Below are positions 97-60,876 of a stretch of DNA of 64,000 nucleotides, piece after piece. The stretch comes from Neelides folsomi (lineage: Eukaryota; Arthropoda; Collembola; Neelipleona; Neelidae). The stretch spans positions 330,898 through 394,897 of the forward strand of contig JAQGBZ010000024.1 in NCBI GenBank assembly GCA_034687125.1, read 5' to 3'. Positions within the stretch are counted from its first letter, which is position 1; each line of letters starts with the position of its first letter. The notes under the pieces are model-generated. The model searched no databases and had not been told where the DNA came from. It was given only the letters and a program-made list of their open reading frames with translations. A program made the translations under genes and the position numbers.

Positions 97-1078
97 TCAC
101 CGAGAACGTCGGAATGGAAATCCGTTTGGCGGTTGTGAATTTCCGTTGTAATAATTCTGAAAAGTCCGAGGCCAACAGTTGTTAAATGGCATATTATTCG
201 GAATACAGCAAGGTTGAGGGCAACAGGGCTGAGGACATGTAGGCATACAACAAGGGTTCTTTGGAACACGAACATAATTACAATTATTCAATTTCCCTTT
301 ATAACAAAATGGTAAATTGAGAGGTCGAGGAGGGCAGGACATTTGAGGATAACAACAAGTATTAGGACTTGGACAGGGACATGGGCAGGGCATTGGACAT
401 GGACATGGCACTGGACATGGACACGGACATGGGCAAGGCAGTGGACAACACTGAGGTGGGCACGGCTGAGGGCAACAAGGTTTTGGACTACAAGGATCAG
501 GACCACAAGGATCGCAACATTTGGGTGTGCAGCAAGGATTGCAAGGATCTTTGTTGCAACAAGGTTCTTTAACAATCAGCTCCTGTTTGTAGCCCACTGG
601 ATAATGCTTCAAACAAATCGTGGTTTTGTGAGAGATTTCTCCAGGTATCTTGAAACAAATGGCTCCAGTTTTACTGTCCATTGTACAACATCCAGTGTCA
701 CCTTCTTCCTGTGATTTGCCCCGACTCCCACTTTTGCTGTACGAGGCAGAATAGGCGTAATTTGACCCTGTTCCTTTAACTTCCACAGTTGGCTCTTCTT
801 CAGACTCATCATCTGAACCTGAGCCCTCATCATCATCATCTCCACTTCCGCTCTCTTCTTCTGTTCCGTCATCATCTGATTCCTCCTCTGATCCAGATCC
901 AGACCCAGACGTTTCATCTTCTTCATCAGACACTGGAGATTGTGGAGATTATTTAGATTAGGATTCGTAAATTCGTAATACATGATGAATATGGTATAGT
1001 AGGCTCTACATTGGTTGTAATCTTGGAATTGAGTTATTCAACTTTTTATGATGTCTCACTTTCTATTTTCATAGACAT
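97..1078 (-). CDS. Acidic, Cys/Pro-rich protein of unknown function (two exons)
   Basis: Proposed exons are 1060-1078 and 97-932, together 284 codons plus stop. The long exon follows an acceptor (CTCCAG) and starts TG TCT GAT GAA. The short upstream exon has ATG at 1078, reads MSMKIE and ends with A before GTGAGA, so the junction creates an in-frame ATG codon. The first 70 residues are Ser/Glu/Asp/Gly runs. A short ordinary segment follows (roughly residues 80-125, with TICLKHYPVGYKQELIV). The C-terminal half is Cys/Pro-rich with CC, PCPC and PQPCC repeats and an RRSR end. I recognise no domain. Composition resembles Cys-rich structural or sperm-type proteins, but that is only an analogy. Other-frame ORFs here are shadows of the repeats. 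The large exon is well supported; the 19-nt first exon is an inference and could instead be 5' UTR. Confidence 0.7.
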
Positions 1079-37501: not shown

Positions 37502-40500
37502 TCAAATGTACTCAATACTGCTCTCGTCAATCTCCGTCGTCTTCTTCTTTTTCTTTTTATCTACACGGGCATAAAGTTGGGACAAATCCGCCACATCGGC
37601 CAGAGCACTCGCCGCAACTTGTTCAGCTTCAGCAAATCCTCTTGCTTCTTCTCTTCTCAACTGAGCATAAGCAATGTCTTCATAGAAGTTCGGTTCTTCT
37701 CGTAAATCATCATGTGATTCTTTAAGTCTCTCATACGGTGGGTATTTGACTCTCTCATACATTTCATCCACACGTTCTTCCTCCTCATCGGATCCTTCAA
37801 CGAGAACGGGACCAGCAGGGAGTTTCCGAAGTTTTTCATACCCGTGTTTCTTCTCTTTGTCTACCTTGGCATAAAATGCATCTGGGTCAGCCAAACGTTC
37901 ACCAATCTCTTGATAGAAACCATTTGGAACAGCAATGGTCTGATAATGATCCATCGGTTCTTCAGGTTCTTCCTCTCGATGTTCTTCAATCTCATTGTAT
38001 GGATTGGGAGCCAAGTCGTCAATTTCTTGGTAATTGTCTTTCCCACTGCTGCTCGCCACTAAAGTCTCACTCATTGCCTCTCGAACAACTTCGAACTCGG
38101 AATAGGAAATATCAGCCTTGGACCATCGGCGAGGTTCTTCACGCACTGAGGGTGACGGAGGATTCTGACTAGAATTCGAAACAGTTGGAGTGAGCGGGGC
38201 TTTCTTCTTCTTTTTAGTGACTTGGGCGTAGAGGGGAGGTGTCGGATGAACGACCGTGCTGGTCGAGGCGATTGCTGGACTTTCGAGTGGAGAAGGAACA
38301 GGTGGAAGAGGAGAATTCGCCTCTCTTCGCTCAGGAATTGGAGTAGCGTTTGGACCGCCTATAATAACATTAACATCATTTATCATTTCATTTCAGAATA
38401 ACTACATACAGTATTTATTGATAAATTTAAAGAAAATTTACCAGCCCATGATGGGTGTCCATCTTCGCCTGAGATTCTCATATAATTATTTTCTGGATCT
38501 TCTATTGCAGCGTACATCTCCTCTGTAAACAGAGTTGAATGGATTAAATATTTAAATAACATTTACAATTTTGAGTATTATATTAATAATGTAATGTTAG
38601 AACTTTAATAATCAATACTATTTTTATTAAATGTAATATTTAAAATTACCCGAGTCATCAGAAACGGTAGCGTAATGAGAGTCATAATTCCGAGTATTTT
38701 TAACTTGACTTCTAATATTTGATAAAGGTTCCCTAACGCTAATACTCGTATATCCCCTCGAATCTTGCGAGTCTCCAGAAAAATGAACTTGAACTGGTTC
38801 ACCCTGTAAGAAATAATAAAATTCCGAAATTGTATAACTATTTGTTAATTCTGTTAATTAATTAAATCAATAAATATAATAGTCTAGTATAACACAGTTA
38901 AAAAATAATCCCGTACAGGCTGAGGTGGTCCAGGTGGTGGTGGGCCAGGATCATTACTTTGAGTTCTTCTCCACTGCCTTGCAACTCTTCTAGGCGGAAC
39001 GGGATTTTCGGGAGGGTCGGGTTCACCATTAGGGTTTAAATTCGGGGGCGGGTCATTTTCTCTCCTTCCACTTTGCGCGTAAGGTTGGGGCATGTCGTAA
39101 TTGTCCGTGTCAGTCTCTTCATCTTGCAAACTTTCATTCCTCACCCTCGCGTAAGGGTTCTCAAGTTTCTTTAATTTTGCATATGGATGATTGGACCCAT
39201 AGGTCTCGGAATCACTCGACGGTTGCGGTTCCTTCGACGTGGAAGGCTTCTCTTCTTTTGAGTATCCCACTGTGGCGTAGAGCTCCGACGTCCCATCGTG
39301 GCTCAAAACTGACGAACTTCGACGCGGAGGATTTTCAGGTGGAAGGTCAGGGAGTTGACGATGAAGCGTCGCCCTATTCAATTAAACCAATAATGAACTC
39401 GGAGAATATTGATTCACTTTAGAGAGCAGTGGTGTAAAATACAAAATGAGAGATATGAAACTAATTGTAAGTGTAATTTGTTATGAGATTAGGAGGAGGG
39501 AGGGAGAGCGATGAGAGAGAATGAAAGCGAAACGAGGAGATAGCGATGAAAGACACCTTTTGAGGGAGTCGGTGAGATGAAGGGATTCGGCGGGTGAAGG
39601 AGATTCATCCCCTTGGGAGAATTGAAGCCCTGAAGGATCTGGATGGAGATCCAACTTCACCTCTCGGTTATTATTTGATGGCCGAGGACCGAACGGAACT
39701 TCTGACGTTGAGAGAATCGTCATCCGCCCTTCGACACCAAACATCTCTTCTCTGCTTGGTCGGAGGAGAGAACAGAAAAAACGGAAGCAAATTATAATTC
39801 ATGCCGGGACGAAGCCAAATAATTCATCAAATAATATTACACAAATTATAAAAATCATAAATTAATCCACAATTGAATAAAATCTACTAATATTTAACAT
39901 GGTCATGCGGAGAAGATATTTCACTAAACTTAACTCACTATTCTTATATCATACAAATACAGGTAGTTATCTTTAATTAAATAATATTAAACTTTGAGCT
40001 ACCTCTTACAATAATACCTAATTAATGAACTTTATATTATACTTTCAAATAATTAAGGGGAAGAGTTAGCTTTAAATACGTTTCCATTTTGAACAAATAT
40101 ACGAGAGTTGGATTATTAATGTATTTAAGAGGTAAATACTTATTATCAGCATATTATAGATTATTGATATAATTAGTTTACTTACATATATTACAAATTT
40201 ATATAGATTTAGGCATATCTTCTTATCTTATGATAAAATGAAACCGAATGAATGTCTTTGATATCGAGTTTCTCGGTAAAAAATTTAAGATATGAAATTG
40301 ATTTTGTAACTTCAAATGGGAGTTAGAATTGGTCCCTGTATTTGCTTAAATTCTCATACGAGCTTCATTGTTCGTATTCAAGATGAAATTAATACTTTTT
40401 TTGTTAATCGAGGAATGATTTTTCTTTCTTTTCAAATACAGTGCATTTTACATTGTGAGTGAGACGTGACATTCATTCAGACGCCAATTTTGGCTTTTGT

Positions 40501-41434
40501 CTTAAGAAACCAATTTTGAATTACTGAAAAAATATATTTTAAATATAAGATAATACATTAAATATTAACATTTAAAATTGATATATTGTTTAAAAACGAA
40601 TTGATCGAATTATTAATTTAATTATACATGTTCATTAAAAGTGCAGAGCTCCTAATTTTAATATCATTTAAAGAATTAATAATTAATATTTTAAATTAAG
40701 AAAATTTAAGTATTTATTAAGACACCAATAATCACAATTTGCAAAACCTACAAGACTCATACATAATTTACAACGCCAAAATACTTTGCATTTATTAAAG
40801 AGCAGAGCTTTTATACCCAATCTACATACAATACTCATAGATTAGGCAAATAATAATAAATTATTAATCAACAAGATCACATTAAAGTCTACAGGTTAAC
40901 TAAAGATTAAAGTACAAAACAGTTAATGATTAAAAATAAGTGAACAAAGAATCAACTACAGTTCAACATTACAAATCTACAACACTCATAAATGACAGGA
41001 GTGACAGGTTTATATAACAAACGACATGAACACGTCAACACTACCCAAAACCAACCAAAGACAATAAAGAGTAAACAAGACCATATGATTAATGGTATAC
41101 TTAATTAGACTAATGCCCAACAAATAAGCCAATTAACTTTCCAACATATTCCGAGCAGCGAAAACCCATTAAAGTAAAGAGAGAAAAGGCGACCCGCAAC
41201 AGAAAAGAAACAGTTTGGGAGGAGAGACGTCAGAGTCGAGAAGAAGAATTGTTGTTGAGTCTAGTTGTGGTAAACGATGACGTACTTTGTGTTTGAGCGA
41301 CGGACACAGCAGTGGTTGAGGATGCATTTGAGGAGGACGAGGACTCCGATGACGAGAGGGAGGAGGAGGGTCACGAGAAGCGGCGCCGATCCGATCCTCG
41401 CCCACGCCAACTCATCCCTTGACAAGACGGCCAT
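37502..41434 (-). CDS. Single-pass membrane adaptor with many YxxPhi motifs and an ITAM (PAG/Cbp-like layout)
   Basis: Five coding exons join in phase: 41286-41434, 38917-39373, 38650-38803, 38442-38522, 37502-38358 (565 residues). An 18-residue N-terminal segment is followed by one hydrophobic helix (from PLLVTLLLPLVIGVLVLL) and juxtamembrane cysteines (KCILNHCCVRR) suited to palmitoylation. The rest is cytoplasmic: Pro-rich SH3-type stretches (PPENPVPPRR, GPPPPGPPQP), Lys runs and twenty YxxPhi motifs such as YATV, YAKL, YMRI, YAQV, YQEI and YERL. YAAIEDPENNYMRI fits the ITAM rule (acidic, YxxI, six residues, YxxI). YAKLKKLENPYARV is a near-ITAM. Short ectodomain, palmitoylation site and many tyrosines resemble vertebrate PAG1/Cbp, which recruits Csk. 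The likely role is a Src-family substrate that docks SH2 proteins at the membrane. I recognise no orthologue by sequence; function is inferred from layout. An in-frame stop lies just upstream of the ATG. Confidence 0.85.
38442..38522 (-). CDS. Adaptor exon carrying the strict ITAM
   Basis: TTTACAG acceptor and GTAAAT donor, phase 1 at both ends. This 81-nt exon encodes EEMYAAIEDPENNYMRIS and a Gly/Asp/His tail. Because it is a multiple of three with equal phases, skipping it would remove the ITAM and keep the frame. Confidence 0.85.
39374..41285. other. First intron of the adaptor gene
   Basis: It separates the membrane-anchor exon from the cytoplasmic exons. The part next to exon 2 (39480-39800) is GC-richer with no convincing coding content; the rest is very AT-rich. 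Confidence 0.5.
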
Positions 41435-41700
41435 TCTCTAAGACCCAACGAGCCCCACCGCCCATCGCCTACAAAATGAAGGAATTAAGGGATGGAATTG
41501 GAACTTTAATTAATTCCCACTCACCTCGTCTCAATCCGCTGGACCCAAGAGTCGTTGACACATTCTTGGAGTTGTAGGTCAACTTCAACCACCCGCGCCC
41601 CACTCCCTTCCCTCCATACTCATTTTTTACCTTCCTCGTCCCATCTTCTTTCTCGCCATGCCCCTTCATCCAACCCTTTTCTTTTGACATTTTTACATCA
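41435..41700 (-). promoter_or_regulatory. 5' UTR of the adaptor gene with an intron and an overlapping upstream ORF
   Basis: Reading the minus strand, GACGAG followed by GTGAGT (exon end at 41525) and TTTTGTAG followed by GCGATGG (exon start about 41469) outline a 5' UTR intron. The downstream piece holds an upstream ATG whose short ORF (MGGGARWVLENGRLVKG, stop) overlaps the main start in another frame. The GC-rich stretch to about 41690 may be the first exon; its ORF does not continue in frame after splicing. This arrangement should reduce translation of the main frame. Confidence 0.4.
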
Positions 41701-42304: not shown

Positions 42305-44644
42305 TTAATCATAATCGTCTCCACATTGGTTTCTGTTATTCTGCCTGTCCTCTGGATTCAACTTAATGAGATCATCTATCCGAAGGATCGTGATAGCAGC
42401 CTCAGTTGCGAACTTGAGACTTTTGATCTTAGAAACCGCTGGTTCCAAAACTCCAACTTCTCTGTTGTCTCTCACAGTTCCTTCGTAGAGGTCAAGGCCA
42501 TACCTGTACCAAAGATATTTTATAGTTGTTATAAATATAAATACAAATTGTCACATCACATGAAAGAATAGTTTTTTTATAAATTAATTAATATTGATTT
42601 ATAGTTTACCATTTGAGATGCTCTTGATCGGTTTTGGTCTGTGATGCATTGTGATACGCTCGAAGTTTAGCTACGAGTTCTGTAGCATCCTGAGCCGCAT
42701 TCACCGAGAGCGTCTTCGGAATCACTAAAAGAGACTTTGCAAATTCGGCAATTGCCAATTGTTCCCGAGAGCTCAATGATGTAGCGAAGTTCTCAAGATA
42801 AATGCTTAAAGCAGCTTCAACTGCACCTCCACCAGGAACAACCTTTGAAATAATTAACACAAATTAATTAAAAATTAAGATGAATCAGTAATGTTGAAAT
42901 ATATTATTACGTAAGGTATTTATTATTACCTTCTTGCTCTCACAGACTCTTTTGACAACGCAAAGAGCGTCATGAATCGATCGCTCCATTTCATCAACAT
43001 AGAAATCATTCGGACCTCTGAGAAGAATTGATGCCGCAGTTCTCGCCTTCGGCCTGTAAATAACAATTAAAAATTAGTAAAAGAGTAAACACGAAGAAAA
43101 ATAAGAAGAATATAATAATTAATGTGCAAATATAAACATTATTTAAGTTACTCTTTGATGAGGATGAGTTCATCGTCACAGATTCTTTCTTGGATAACTT
43201 CTTTAGCTTCTCCCAATGAAGAAGCTTCAAAAGTTTCCTCTCCTTCCAAATTAGCCAATGAGCCAAGAAGAGTTGCTCCAGTTGCTTTCGCGATTCTCTT
43301 CAAATCAGCCTTTTTGCACCTACGGACGGCCATTGCTCCTCCTTCGATGAAATACTAAACAAAAAATATTATTGTAAATAATCATAAAAGGTACATTGTC
43401 AACATTGTAACAAGAAATTGAATAATTTAAATACATTTTAAATCTAAACAATAAATGTGTCTGTAAACCTTGAGGCAAAGATCATCAATTCCTCCAGTGA
43501 CAAGGATGACATTTGCACCGGCAGCCAGAATCTTTAAGATCTTTTCTTTAGTCAAATCACACTCTCGTTGTCGGATCTCTTCGAGTTTGGATGGATCGGT
43601 GAGAAGGATTTGAACTCCAAGCTTCAATTTCGTCTTTTGCAATGAAAAGTCCAAGCACGCAATCTTTGCCTTCTCGATCTTCTTGGGCATCATTTGAGAA
43701 GCGACAGTGCAATTAAGAGCGTAGCCGGGAACAAGATAACTTTCCCGGGCACTTTTTCCATGAGCTTTCAAGATATTGACCGAATTGATTGGGTAAACCG
43801 AGTTTCCCTTTGAGTCCGTAAACTTGATTGCCTCACAAGCATCAACAGTCATTTTTCCAAAAAACTCAGAATCACTAAATAAATTATTCAAGTTAGTTAA
43901 AGAACAATAATTATTTTAAAATAAATTAAATATAAAACTTACGCTCCAATCAACTTGCTAGACATTGAAGTTTTCGCTGCATTGATAAGGCAATCTTTTC
44001 CAAGTTCTGCAACCGGAATGGTCAGATGGTCAGCAATGTAACGAACAGCCTCTCTTTAATTTTAAATTCAAATTATAGGATATCAAATCAAAGGATTATT
44101 ATGAAAATATTCGTATTTATGGATCATTAAAAATTCTATTACTTGCACGCAAGCCGATAACCAGCAATAATCGTCGTTGGATGAATTTTTTGCTTGACAA
44201 GTTCATCTCCATTTTTAAGAAGTTCAGCCGCAATAATGACAACGGACGTCGTCCCATCACCAACTTCCTCATCTTGCAATTGAGCAAGCTCAACAAGAAC
44301 TTTAGCCGCTGGATGGTCGACTTCGAGAAGCTTCAAAATGGTAGCTCCGTCATTCGTGATCGTCACATCCCCAATGTCATCCACGAGCATCTTGTCCAAG
44401 CCAACTGGTCCAAGAGAGCTCTTCACAATGTTGGCAATCGAAGATGCAGCCATAACTAATATAAATAGAAAAATTTACGTTTGTGTCATTTTGATTTAAA
44501 TATATGATTAATACTGGAAATAATGAAACAGAGCCGGTCTGTTTTTTCAACACGAGAATAAAAATTGAAATTACCATTCATGGACCTGACAGGGGCCCCA
44601 CTCTGTTTCGTTCCATGAAAAGAAAGAGGAATAGCGGTCGACAT
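42305..44644 (-). CDS. CCT1: T-complex protein 1 subunit alpha (CCT1), complete
   Basis: Alpha subunit of the cytosolic chaperonin CCT/TRiC, which folds actin, tubulin and other proteins using ATP. Exons: 44575-44644, 44143-44455, 43943-44053, 43469-43874, 43152-43354, 42930-43053, 42610-42842, 42305-42503. They sum to 552 residues plus stop, the usual family length. Signatures include [33 protein letters not shown], the GDGTTS nucleotide motif, [43 protein letters not shown] and [12 protein letters not shown]. The conserved alpha-type C-terminal domain runs to [10 protein letters not shown], followed by a short Asn/Asp-rich tail. All introns are short with GT-AG borders. The alpha subunit is assigned over other CCT subunits from the near-identity of the N-terminal third to animal CCT1. 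Confidence 0.97.
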
Positions 44645-45582: not shown

Positions 45583-47293
45583 GTAAGGACACCTTCAATT
45601 AATCATAACTGACCCCTAAATTAGTAAAAAACATATTCTGCATCTTAATTGGAGAAGGATCACAGAGGTGAAGAGTGAAGGAATATAGCTAGTTGGGTTA
45701 ATTGTACAAATTAGTTTTACTTAGTCGGCCCCTTTCCTTGGGATGTCACTCTTGGGGTTAGACCTCCCTCAGGCCCCCACAATGCCGACTTTCGATCAAA
45801 CGATCATGAAAATTTTGTTCATATTTCCTCAACTTTAACTAGTAATTGATCCCTAATTTATCAATTAATTGCAATTGAGGAACTTTTATTGCATAAATTA
45901 TAGGGAGTAAAGTATTATTTACTCCCTTGGTGGCATCTTAAAATTTCATCATCGTCCAAGGCTCCGGGAATAATCAGTACTGAGGATTTATATTATTCAA
46001 AAACGTATTTGAGAGTTTTGAATGTTTCGGTATCTTATCGTATTTAGGTTTATGAGAGAATTTAACAAAGTTTATTTTAATCAATTTAATTAGATCATTG
46101 AGTGACATCGTTAATAGGTTCAACATTGTGGTATGGTGGGATCATGAATGACGAAGAACGGAGAATCGTTTCACAATTAGATAATGGACCATGGTGTTAA
46201 ACAGTGTGTAGAAATCATGAAATAAAATATTATGAGACAGGGTTGAATAGCAAGGTGATTAATTTAATATTCCACCTCACTCAATCGTTTCCTCATACGA
46301 TCCATTGAACACAAGGGAGGATATTTCCAGGAGGAGTTTGGAATTACCTATCTCATCCCTGACGTCACCCACTACTCGCCTCCCCGATCGGTTAATGAAT
46401 CACTCATCCCGCTCGCTCTCCCCTGTATCTACATATATTTACTATTTACACTTATTGTATCCCCATATGCGTATGTGAAATATGCTCCAAGGACTCTTCT
46501 CTTTTGGTCCATTGCATTGATGTCCATTAGGGAGGGAGAGGGCCCTCTGTCATAAAATCGAAGGACCCTCCACGCTCCCTTCCAAATCTCTCCCTCACAT
46601 TCCAATTCTATACATTAAAATACCCTTCATTGGGCCTTTCCCCAAGCATATATTAGATTTATAAGCTCCTCTTTTCGAAGATGGAGAAGAATGTGGAGCT
46701 TCCTTCCCTTTCGACACCTTCAAGATGTCATATGCTACACTTGTTTATTTCAAAAATCCTTGTTTAGGGAAGGTCGAATCACCTTAAAATTTATTTTTGC
46801 ATCTTTTAGTGGATCAACGGAAGGAAGATGTAATATTGCGGAACACATATTTGAATAAATGTATGAAATTTATTTTAGGTACATATTAAATAATATATTT
46901 TTGAGTGATATTTACCATTCGATGGTGCTGTTGAGTTTTAATTTAAAACTTTTAAACTTGGCTTGGCTTCATTTATAATAAAGTTAGGGTTTAGGAAAAT
47001 ATTTTGTTGTTGATTTTTTGGTTTATAAATATAGGTAATGAATGAAATCTAATTTTAATTTGCCTAAAGTCAAATTTTACTAAATATTTAGATTACGTGG
47101 ATGAATTGAAATAGTTTATTTTCGCATTCTCATTCTGGCTCACATAAACTCATGCCAAATCGTACGCCCCCTTCAGTTCAGCATAGTATTGGACGGTATT
47201 GCATTATAGACTTTGTAAATATAATACACGTACATTTGCTGTACAATCATGAACGCTCGGTCATTATCACACTTTTGTAAAGTTGAGATTAAA
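45583..47293. promoter_or_regulatory. Region upstream of the IER gene, with a CRE
   Basis: No gene seen. A full CRE palindrome TGACGTCA lies at 46360-46367, about 0.93 kb before the IER start, inside a GC-richer patch (46320-46600). Immediate-early genes in animals are often driven by CRE and serum-response elements, so this is a candidate enhancer. The 5' UTR start is not identifiable. Confidence 0.3.
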
Positions 47294-48289
47294 ATGGCAA
47301 TTCCCGTTGCAGATCCACTACGAGGGCGGTGGAGCGAGAAGATGTCAGACGATGCGAAGAAAGTGATGAACTTGTCACTGAGCAAGATGGCCGAGTCGAG
47401 GAGCATTCGACGAGGGGGATCGTCGCTTCACAAACATCTCCTCATAGCTTCGGTGCTCACTAAGGCTCAACGAGCGTTCTTCGAGAACTGGTACCTGGAC
47501 ACTTCTGACACCGACTGCCCGCCTAATTCACCTTTCCCTCGGCCCATTCCTCAACAAGAAGATCCCGGCTCAGCAATCGACCCTCGATTCCTGGTGGAAG
47601 TTGAGAGCGAGAACGAGATCGACCTTCCTTCAGATATCCTCACCTGTGTTGAAAAGCTGGGAGACTTTTCTCCACCTCAACAATTTGAAGAGGAGATGCC
47701 GAACACGTTGTCTTACCTTGACCTCGACGCTCCTCCGAATAGCATTCATTATCTTAAGAGTTCCGAAGTGGTGATCGAGCCAATTCTCCTTCCAGGACCA
47801 AGTTCGGCTAAGAGACCGAGGGCATGGAGCATTGAAGACGATCATGACCAGGAACTGAACCTCCCTTCTGAATTGGGGGAAAAGTTGCGGAAGAACGGAG
47901 TGTCAGTGACTCCAAGTGGGGGAAACAACAAACGAATGCGCCTAGAGGAACCAGGGCCATTCCGAACCAAATTTGAAGATGAGGAATCGTCGTCTGATGA
48001 AGAGGACTCTTTTTTGTCCGAAGTGGGCCAGCCGTGGGAGGAGCGGAAGAGCAATAGAGACCGCCGAGTACCGTCAAGTGGATCTTGTTCCGATGACGAT
48101 GCTGAGAGCATGGAGGTCGACCAAATCACGAGTCTGGTCCAGTACTTCTCATTGAAGGCGAAAGGGAAGGGGATGGTCCGCTCTCTCTCCTCCCCTGACC
48201 TCTGCAATCGCCCTGAGGCTCCTGACCCGCCAAGTGAATTCTTTGGCCCTCATTTACTTCAGCATCGCGTCCTCACGATGACCGTCTGA
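47294..48289 (+). CDS. Immediate early response (IER2/IER5-like) protein, intronless
   Basis: A single uninterrupted frame of 331 residues. Near the N-terminus AKKVMNLSLSKMAESRS and RRGGSSLHKHLLIASVLT match the conserved IER domain (in IER5 the corresponding order is a hydrophobic helix, RRGG-type turn, LHKNLLVS). Next come a Pro/Glu-rich middle, KRPR and KRMR basic clusters that may act as nuclear localisation signals, and an acidic Ser block (ESSSDEEDS). The C-terminal AESMEVDQITSLVQYF parallels the AEEMET-xNVANLIS motif of IER5. Family members are nuclear, rapidly induced by growth factors or stress, and IER5 links PP2A to HSF1 and other substrates. I chose ATG 47294 (AAAATGG context). An in-frame ATG at 47249 adds 15 residues, and ATG 47342 gives a start close to vertebrate proteins. 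Lack of introns is typical for this family. Confidence 0.82.
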   Translation: MAIPVADPLRGRWSEKMSDDAKKVMNLSLSKMAESRSIRRGGSSLHKHLLIASVLTKAQRAFFENWYLDTSDTDCPPNSPFPRPIPQQEDPGSAIDPRFLVEVESENEIDLPSDILTCVEKLGDFSPPQQFEEEMPNTLSYLDLDAPPNSIHYLKSSEVVIEPILLPGPSSAKRPRAWSIEDDHDQELNLPSELGEKLRKNGVSVTPSGGNNKRMRLEEPGPFRTKFEDEESSSDEEDSFLSEVGQPWEERKSNRDRRVPSSGSCSDDDAESMEVDQITSLVQYFSLKAKGKGMVRSLSSPDLCNRPEAPDPPSEFFGPHLLQHRVLTMTV

Positions 48290-59608: not shown

Positions 59609-60876
59609 TTAAGTGGGCGGAGGAAGATGGAAATTTGGAGGTAATCTTCCAGGACCCATGCGAGCTCGGAAATTTGGACGCTTCAAGGCGTCAAAAGGTT
59701 CAATCGAGAAAAGCGATCCAAATACTGTGTGTTGTATGACCGGGAATTTGGCAAGGACCTCCGCTTTGTACATCTTCAAAAGACCCTGGTTCACCTTTGT
59801 CCAACTCGGGATTCCGCTGATATTCCAAAGTTGATTCGAATGTTCGTGGAAAGGACCAGTCTTCACCTGCATGATGTACTTGATACATGCGAGGAAGAGA
59901 TAATCTTCATGTTGTTTTTCGAGAATATTTTCATCAATAAACTTTGGAGGGTCAATTGTTCCATGCCCTGCAATAATATATATTTTTTGTCATGAACTAT
60001 TAAAATATTTACTTTTAATTATTTCAAAAGACATTTTATTTTTAATAAAATATATTAAAACAAATATTACCCAAAAGTTGACTGCTTCCCCAAATGAATG
60101 GTACAAACTGAAAATCGTCGAGACTCCACACTCCATGACTTCCAGCAGGTTCCATATTATACGCAGTTTGCAACTTCCTCACGAGTCTCATGTATCTGTC
60201 AAAGATCTTGTTCACAGCCCCCATTTTGTCATCAACTGAGGCAACGTCAAGAACTCCAATGCGAAAGAGACAATACATAAAGATAATGAAGGACATTTCA
60301 TGACCACTTCCATAGTCAATACGAGTACTGTTCCCCATTGACTCAACAAGGTAAACTTCAATCTCTTCAATCGACTTGTGAAATTCTTCCTTCAGAGCTT
60401 CCCTTAAAAGTTCTCCAGCTGACTCTTTTAGTTTGAGATACCATTGGGCAAAGGCTTTATTGCCAAACCTCTGAGGTTGCTCGATTGGAGGTGTTTCGTC
60501 AATCATCTTGTCCAATTTGTCTAAGAGATTCATGATTGACTCGACGCCAATTGAAAGTGCAATCGGTGTTGAATTGGCTTTCCCTCTCACTGCTTCGTTC
60601 ATGCTTTCGACAAACCCCACATATTCCTATTATGACCCAAATATTAATGGATTCGATTTTTATTAAATTAATCAATGTCAAATGAATATAATATTATTGA
60701 AATCACATGCCTGATATGCTTCGCATTTTTCCCATTTTTCCATTTCACCGGTAATGAGGATCTCCCTTTTGGGAATCTTGTACTCATGATCTGCGGCTAA
60801 ATGAAATATATATTATTGTAATTTTTGAAAAATTTGTAATAAAGATAGCAGCAAAGATGAACTTACCAACTGCCAT
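59609..60876 (-). CDS. PTPA: Serine/threonine-protein phosphatase 2A activator (PTPA), complete
   Basis: Peptidyl-prolyl isomerase-like activator that restores the active, metal-loaded state of the PP2A catalytic subunit in cytosol and nucleus. Exons: 60867-60876 (MAV plus one base), 60711-60796, 60071-60626, 59609-59967; together 336 residues, near the usual length. Signatures in order: EILITGEMEKWEKCEAYQEY at the N-terminus, DETPPIEQPQRFGNKAFAQW, ESMGNSTRIDYGSGHEMSF, MEPAGSHGVWSLDDFQFVPF with IWGSSQLLG, TGPFHEHSNQLWNISGIPSW, and KVNQGLLKMYKAEVLAKFPV with IQH. A Pro/Arg-rich tail ends in PPPT. The second intron appears to use a GC donor (CAG then GCATGT); the join is fixed by the protein sequence. 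It is transcribed divergently from the peroxiredoxin gene 0.6 kb away. Confidence 0.96.

Follow-up and report, generated by a model that had tools for sequence, protein, structure and literature searches.

A tyrosine-rich, probably single-pass membrane adaptor encoded in the genome of the collembolan Neelides folsomi

The adaptor locus and its predicted protein

The stretch of DNA analyzed here (the window) comprises 64,000 nucleotides of contig JAQGBZ010000024.1 in the Neelides folsomi assembly GCA_034687125.1 (positions 330,898 to 394,897 of the forward strand). Its minus strand carries a spliced gene with an ATG at 41434 and the end of its stop codon at 37502 (window coordinates), which we model as six coding exons separated by five GT-AG introns. 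Phase is kept throughout, and the joined frame contains 630 codons plus the stop codon. The initial annotation had described five exons in consistent phase; the phase stands, whereas the count must be raised to six coding exons in the joined model. The exons and a candidate leader intron are as follows.

41469..41524, minus strand: candidate 5' leader intron of 56 bases, ACGAG^GTGAGT ... TTTTGTAG^GCG, proposed from its splice-site sequence
41286..41434, minus strand: coding exon 1, 149 bases, with the ATG, an N-terminus of about 16 residues, the membrane helix and the juxtamembrane cysteines; donor GTACGT, phase 2
39557..39751, minus strand: coding exon 2, 195 bases, keeping phase between acceptor GCAG and a weak donor, GTGTCT
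38917..39373, minus strand: coding exon 3, 457 bases, proline-rich, with 3 YxxPhi sites; acceptor GAATAG, pyrimidine tract poor
38650..38803, minus strand: coding exon 4, 154 bases
38442..38522, minus strand: coding exon 5, 81 bases
37502..38358, minus strand: coding exon 6, 857 bases including the stop codon, with 13 YxxPhi sites

The weakest splice joints of this model are the donor of exon 2 and the acceptor of exon 3. Because an in-frame TAG lies two codons 5' of the ATG, the ectodomain comprises about 16 residues, barring another spliced 5' coding exon; the predicted 56-base leader intron is possible, judging by its splice sites. GC content is 0.59, 0.44, and 0.43 at the first, second, and third codon positions of the coding sequence, 0.16 to 0.37 in the five introns, and 0.347 in the window. 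The gene is single-copy: a search of its own genome (a 75.1-Mb assembly in 840 contigs) with the protein, at E up to 1, returned six matches, every one at the gene's own locus, and no paralogue was found besides its own exons.

Several other open reading frames in the window were recognized by eye. Upstream of the adaptor gene, at 42305-43915 on the minus strand, there are frames resembling exons of a CCT/TCP-1 chaperonin subunit; a 354-residue frame at 47225-48289 (plus strand) is SERTA-domain-like, and a 194-residue frame at 60042-60626 (minus strand) looks like the PP2A activator PTPA. A 283-residue frame at 97-948 (minus strand) has a long acidic and serine-rich stretch and a Cys-Pro-rich end (CPCPCPCP). 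On the mitochondrial contig of 15,157 bases, the gene order, with cox1-trnL(UUR)-cox2 and with trnI-trnQ-trnM before nd2, is that of Pancrustacea (crustaceans and hexapods).

Based on its predicted sequence, the product of the spliced gene is probably a single-pass membrane adaptor that is palmitoylated near its helix. Three elements of its anatomy can be placed on the exon model, from which the helix coordinates were computed.

41330..41386, minus strand: membrane helix, residues 17-35, mean hydropathy 2.79
41306..41326, minus strand: juxtamembrane CxxxxCC, residues 37-43, palmitoylation-like, the modification being putative
39334..39360, minus strand: RQLPDLPPE, residues 120-128, a class I SH3 ligand pattern ([RK]xxPxxP)

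There is only one membrane helix, as the best 19-residue stretch of the tail reaches a hydropathy of 0.89 vs. 2.79 in the helix, and positive charges lie on its C-terminal side. The cysteines at 37, 42, and 43, all adjoining the helix, are the sole cysteines of the protein. Thus, with the ATG at 41434 assumed, the exon model, hydropathy, and cysteine positions bear out the short ectodomain, single helix, and juxtamembrane cysteines described in the initial annotation. Proline and glutamate each make up 12% of the 584-residue tail and serine 10%; the tail contains 27 tyrosines and ends in IEYI. A Pfam search with the joined protein found no family, even at E up to 10. A PDB sequence search gave a single match (E 0.88) to a low-complexity-like stretch, which we take as chance.

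An excess of YxxPhi motifs in the tail

The YxxPhi motif (Phi being L, I, V, M, or F) occurs at exactly 20 of the 27 tyrosines, the number given earlier for this locus, whereas 20,000 composition shuffles yield a mean of 4.45 such motifs and a maximum of 14. The Phi excess sits at position +3 (20 tyrosines), with none at +1, +2, and +4 (2, 1, and 0, respectively) and some at -1 (8). Alanine follows 10 of the 27 tyrosines directly, against a residue frequency of 0.063 (P = 3e-6), and nine sites read YAx[VIL]. The gene is real, and so is its surplus of tyrosine motifs. Classed by general SH2 and SH3 preferences, and as patterns only, 8 of the 27 tyrosines fit the Csk type and 5 the Src type; YAxV also suits SH2 domains other than that of Csk. 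Neither YxN nor YxxM occurs at any of the 27, although the absence of YxN is not significant in itself, 1.34 being expected by chance. Three copies of [LF]YA[QKR]V[TD]K[KE]KK are found in exon 6.

A putative dock for Src and Csk, and its alternatives

The genome contains 31 SH2 profile matches at E up to 0.001, and 40, in 28 loci, at E up to 10. We inspected the open reading frames of 30 matches from the stricter search together with those at C237 and C221, the remaining eight matches adjoining ones already inspected, and named the gene types by eye rather than with any tool. Among the matches listed, a kinase match adjoins SH2 at five loci, which appear by eye to be of the Src, Csk, Abl, Fer, and Tec types; the Src-type frame lies at C88, the Csk-type at C6, and an SHP2-type at C252. 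The non-kinase types recognized in the same way are SHP2, RasGAP, PLC-gamma (two), p85, Nck, Grb2, Crk (two), Vav, SH2B, tensin, STAT, and SOCS, and the matches at C459, C242, and C237 were given no type name. By eye, the two PLC-gamma-like loci, L028 (C98) and L038 (C261), are separate and have SH2-SH2-SH3 frames. In a tyrosine-kinase profile search of the genome (132 of 503 candidates scored), dozens of the matches listed, on many contigs (e.g., C563, C532, C361, and C206), cover approximately positions 162-236 of PF07714 and resemble each other in exon arrangement; a single kinase family may have expanded here.

The genome thus named by eye contains genes of the Src, Csk, and SHP2 types, and the tail has fitting tyrosines. 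We hypothesize, with a probability of about 0.55 and by analogy, that the protein is a functional counterpart of vertebrate PAG/Cbp and provides a Src-family kinase with a negative-feedback dock. An active Src-type kinase would place its SH3 domain on RQLPDLPPE and phosphorylate the tail, and sites of the YQEI, YNEI, and YEDI type would retain it through its SH2 domain. Sites of the YAxV type (YATV, YARV, YAQV, and YAKV) would recruit Csk, which would then phosphorylate the C-tail of Src and shut it down, and an SHP2-type phosphatase would reset the scaffold, perhaps bound through neighboring site pairs spaced x6-7. In this scheme we infer palmitoylation and phosphorylation, all of the binding, and which way regulation runs. 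Several papers describe corresponding steps in vertebrates: binding of the Csk SH2 domain to phosphorylated CBP/PAG activates Csk and takes it to rafts (PMC10016382; PMC10312003), Fyn phosphorylates PAG Tyr317 and so recruits Csk (PMC3469622), and SHP2 dephosphorylates the same tyrosine (PMC7464719).

The alternative that survives best, which we nevertheless consider rather unlikely, is a general docking scaffold (Gab/Dos- or IRS-like, plus a helix) for the tandem-SH2 enzymes SHP2, PLC-gamma, PI3K p85, and RasGAP, in which the x6-7 pairs would be the functional units and Csk would be one client. At the classical spacing of x6-8 there are 6 neighboring YxxPhi pairs vs. 1.95 expected (P = 0.007; 0.010 with local density kept), and frames with two SH2 domains of the SHP2, RasGAP, PLC-gamma (two loci), and p85 types were seen by eye. 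However, over the range x6-12 the 7 neighboring pairs vs. 4.2 expected are not significant (P = 0.09; 0.11 with local density kept), YxxM sites of the p85 type are lacking, some of the close pairs resemble internal duplicates (ENPYA[KR]), and SHP2 usually prefers a wider spacing than x6-7. For the spacings 6 and 7 alone, values chosen post hoc, P is about 0.001. The paired spacing of the sites may matter a little.

A different proposal is that the protein is in truth an ITAM adaptor, whose paired sites would recruit a Syk/Shark-type kinase and activate signaling in the way that fly Draper signals through Shark. We find this quite improbable. Three pairs in the tail fit the strict pattern Y..[LI]-x6-12-Y..[LI], each with an acidic residue at -2, which is aspartate in the second and third pairs.

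38473..38514, minus strand: YAAIEDPENNYMRI, YAAI-x6-YMRI, residues 322-335
37988..38032, minus strand: YQEIDDLAPNPYNEI, YQEI-x7-YNEI, residues 455-469
37904..37945, minus strand: YQTIAVPNGFYQEI, YQTI-x6-YQEI, residues 484-497

The first pair is the one that the initial annotation had singled out as a strict ITAM; it is present with its acidic residue, but it is not alone, the other two having been missed, and the near matches YAKL-x6-YARV and YAKV-x7-YEKL both exist as described. The pattern typical of ITAM adaptors, [DE]x0-2 YxxL/I x6-12 YxxL/I, is thus found in three copies, with 1.55 expected from site density. Plain composition shuffles rarely produce three ITAMs (4 of 20,000), a rarity that follows from the high density of YxxPhi: when the 20 sites are placed randomly (50,000 trials), the mean is 1.55 ITAMs, with at least one in 83% of the trials and at least three in 18%. 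Since random placement yields ITAMs so readily, the strict ITAM is no separate signal, and we dropped its spacing, which site density accounts for, both as evidence in itself and as the special feature it had been thought to be.

The recruitment of a Syk/ZAP-70-type kinase suggested earlier also finds little in the genome to build on. With exons searched singly, so that an intron-split gene may escape, no SH2-SH2-kinase (Syk/Shark type) was recognized among the 40 SH2 matches in 28 loci at E up to 10, and a human SYK query, its sequence checked against the PDB, met no SH2 domain outside the Src- and Csk-type loci among the 83 of 244 candidates scored. The ITAM therefore has no identified reader in this genome. 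Two kinases with high SYK identity, at C37 and C4, were set aside as they look by eye like EGF-receptor and Eph types. One paper reports that, among invertebrates, vertebrate-like Syk is confined to those with CARD-CC/Bcl10, and that Ecdysozoa are without Bcl10 (PMC5978004). A Src42A-Draper-Shark axis does exist in Drosophila, according to another study (PMC4503800), and by analogy Shark is the kinase to be expected in an arthropod.

Similarly improbable is that the helix exon is part of a different transcript, the main product being a cytosolic tyrosine-rich adaptor that starts in exon 2 or later, for which in-frame ATGs are available in exon 2, intron 1 is the longest of the five (1534 bases), and the candidate leader intron leaves the 5' end unsettled, but against which exon 1 joins exon 2 in phase at GTACGT and has a GC content of 0.59 and a GC3 of 0.78.

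Comparison with known adaptors

Among known systems, LAT (linker for activation of T cells, PF15234) shares with the protein a short N-terminus, a helix, juxtamembrane cysteines, and tail tyrosines. However, in human LAT 5 of the 10 tail tyrosines are YxN (Grb2-type) and none is Csk- or Src-type, whereas no YxN occurs here, and the alignment to LAT is no better than shuffles (254 of 300 and 278 of 300 equal it); the LAT-type reading was therefore rejected. Draper-I with Shark offers strict ITAM spacing and an expected upstream Src-type kinase, as here, but differs in that no Shark-type kinase was recognized in this genome and that the present protein has many more sites. Moreover, Draper is itself a receptor, and its ectodomain is large. 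The Gab/Dos docking proteins are likewise tyrosine-rich unfolded scaffolds with SH2 and SH3 docking sites; they carry a PH domain and are without a membrane helix, whereas the protein described here has a helix and no PH or other Pfam match.

The closest likeness is to PAG1. Both proteins have a short N-terminus, one helix, cysteines beside it, and a long tail without recognized domains, and both have Csk-type and Src-type sites and no YxN. A Src-family SH3 ligand near the membrane, a mark of PAG/Cbp, is found here as a pattern (RQLPDLP at 120), and RQLPDLPPE resembles RELPRIPPE at 131 of PAG1 (RxLPx[IL]PPE at a nearly equal residue number), the stretch of PAG1 used by the Fyn SH3 domain. The human PAG1 sequence used for comparison scores 752 bits to PF15347 in the same Pfam library. 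Its 10 tyrosines include 4 Csk-type, 1 Src-type, no YxN, and no YxxM sites, vs. 8, 5, 0, and 0 of 27 here. The two differ in length (432 residues vs. 630 here), in tail tyrosines (10 vs. 27), in cysteine pattern (CSSC vs. CxxxxCC), and at the C-terminus (ITRL vs. IEYI).

The alignment to PAG1 is weak. The best ungapped 10-mer match to PAG1, RQLPDLPPEN (120) with RELPRIPPES (131), is equaled by 17 of 300 shuffles, and the next include PAG1 YASVDRNKK-type with YAKVDKEKK here. The gapped tail alignment scores 87, equaled by 159 of 3000 shuffled tails; with the helix kept in place the score is 98, equaled by 28 of 3000 shuffles (36 of 3000 with longer tokens). Shuffling block order equals the real alignment in 203 of 3000 trials, and shuffling PAG1 instead does so in 59 of 3000. 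A figure of 0 of 300 obtained with the helix also shuffled is inflated by the helix itself. When the nine SH3-ligand residues are masked, the score falls to 70, equaled by 1050 of 3000 shuffles, and exons 3, 4-5, and 6 aligned singly are equaled by 104, 168, and 44 of 300. The PAG model (PF15347) does not match the joined protein at E up to 10, and gave no match in the whole genome, in a search in which no control matched either. The PAG/Cbp-like layout noted in the initial annotation is thus upheld as a likeness of build and not as membership of the family. Among prokaryote genomes and in IMG/VR, 77 stretches resembling exon 3 and 106 pattern stretches for exon 6, respectively, were found and none was confirmed, which says little because animals fall outside the scope of both collections. 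The accessible parts of the literature searched describe no invertebrate PAG, which does not prove its absence from print.

Given one short motif and the layout, homology to PAG1 is possible, and a PAG1-like function is the best reading of the protein as predicted. More tentatively, and with considerable doubt, we suggest that arthropods may have a Csk-recruiting membrane adaptor enlarged to 20 docking sites, either a fast-evolving PAG1 orthologue or the same design arrived at independently, which would work with no more than Src, Csk, and SHP2 in a lineage possibly devoid of Syk/Shark. In vertebrates it is adaptors like PAG1 that give Csk access to Src at the membrane. If the gene plays this part in arthropods, the membrane brake that Csk puts on Src could be tested in one of them, and comparing the protein with PAG1 would tell an ancient design from a reinvention.
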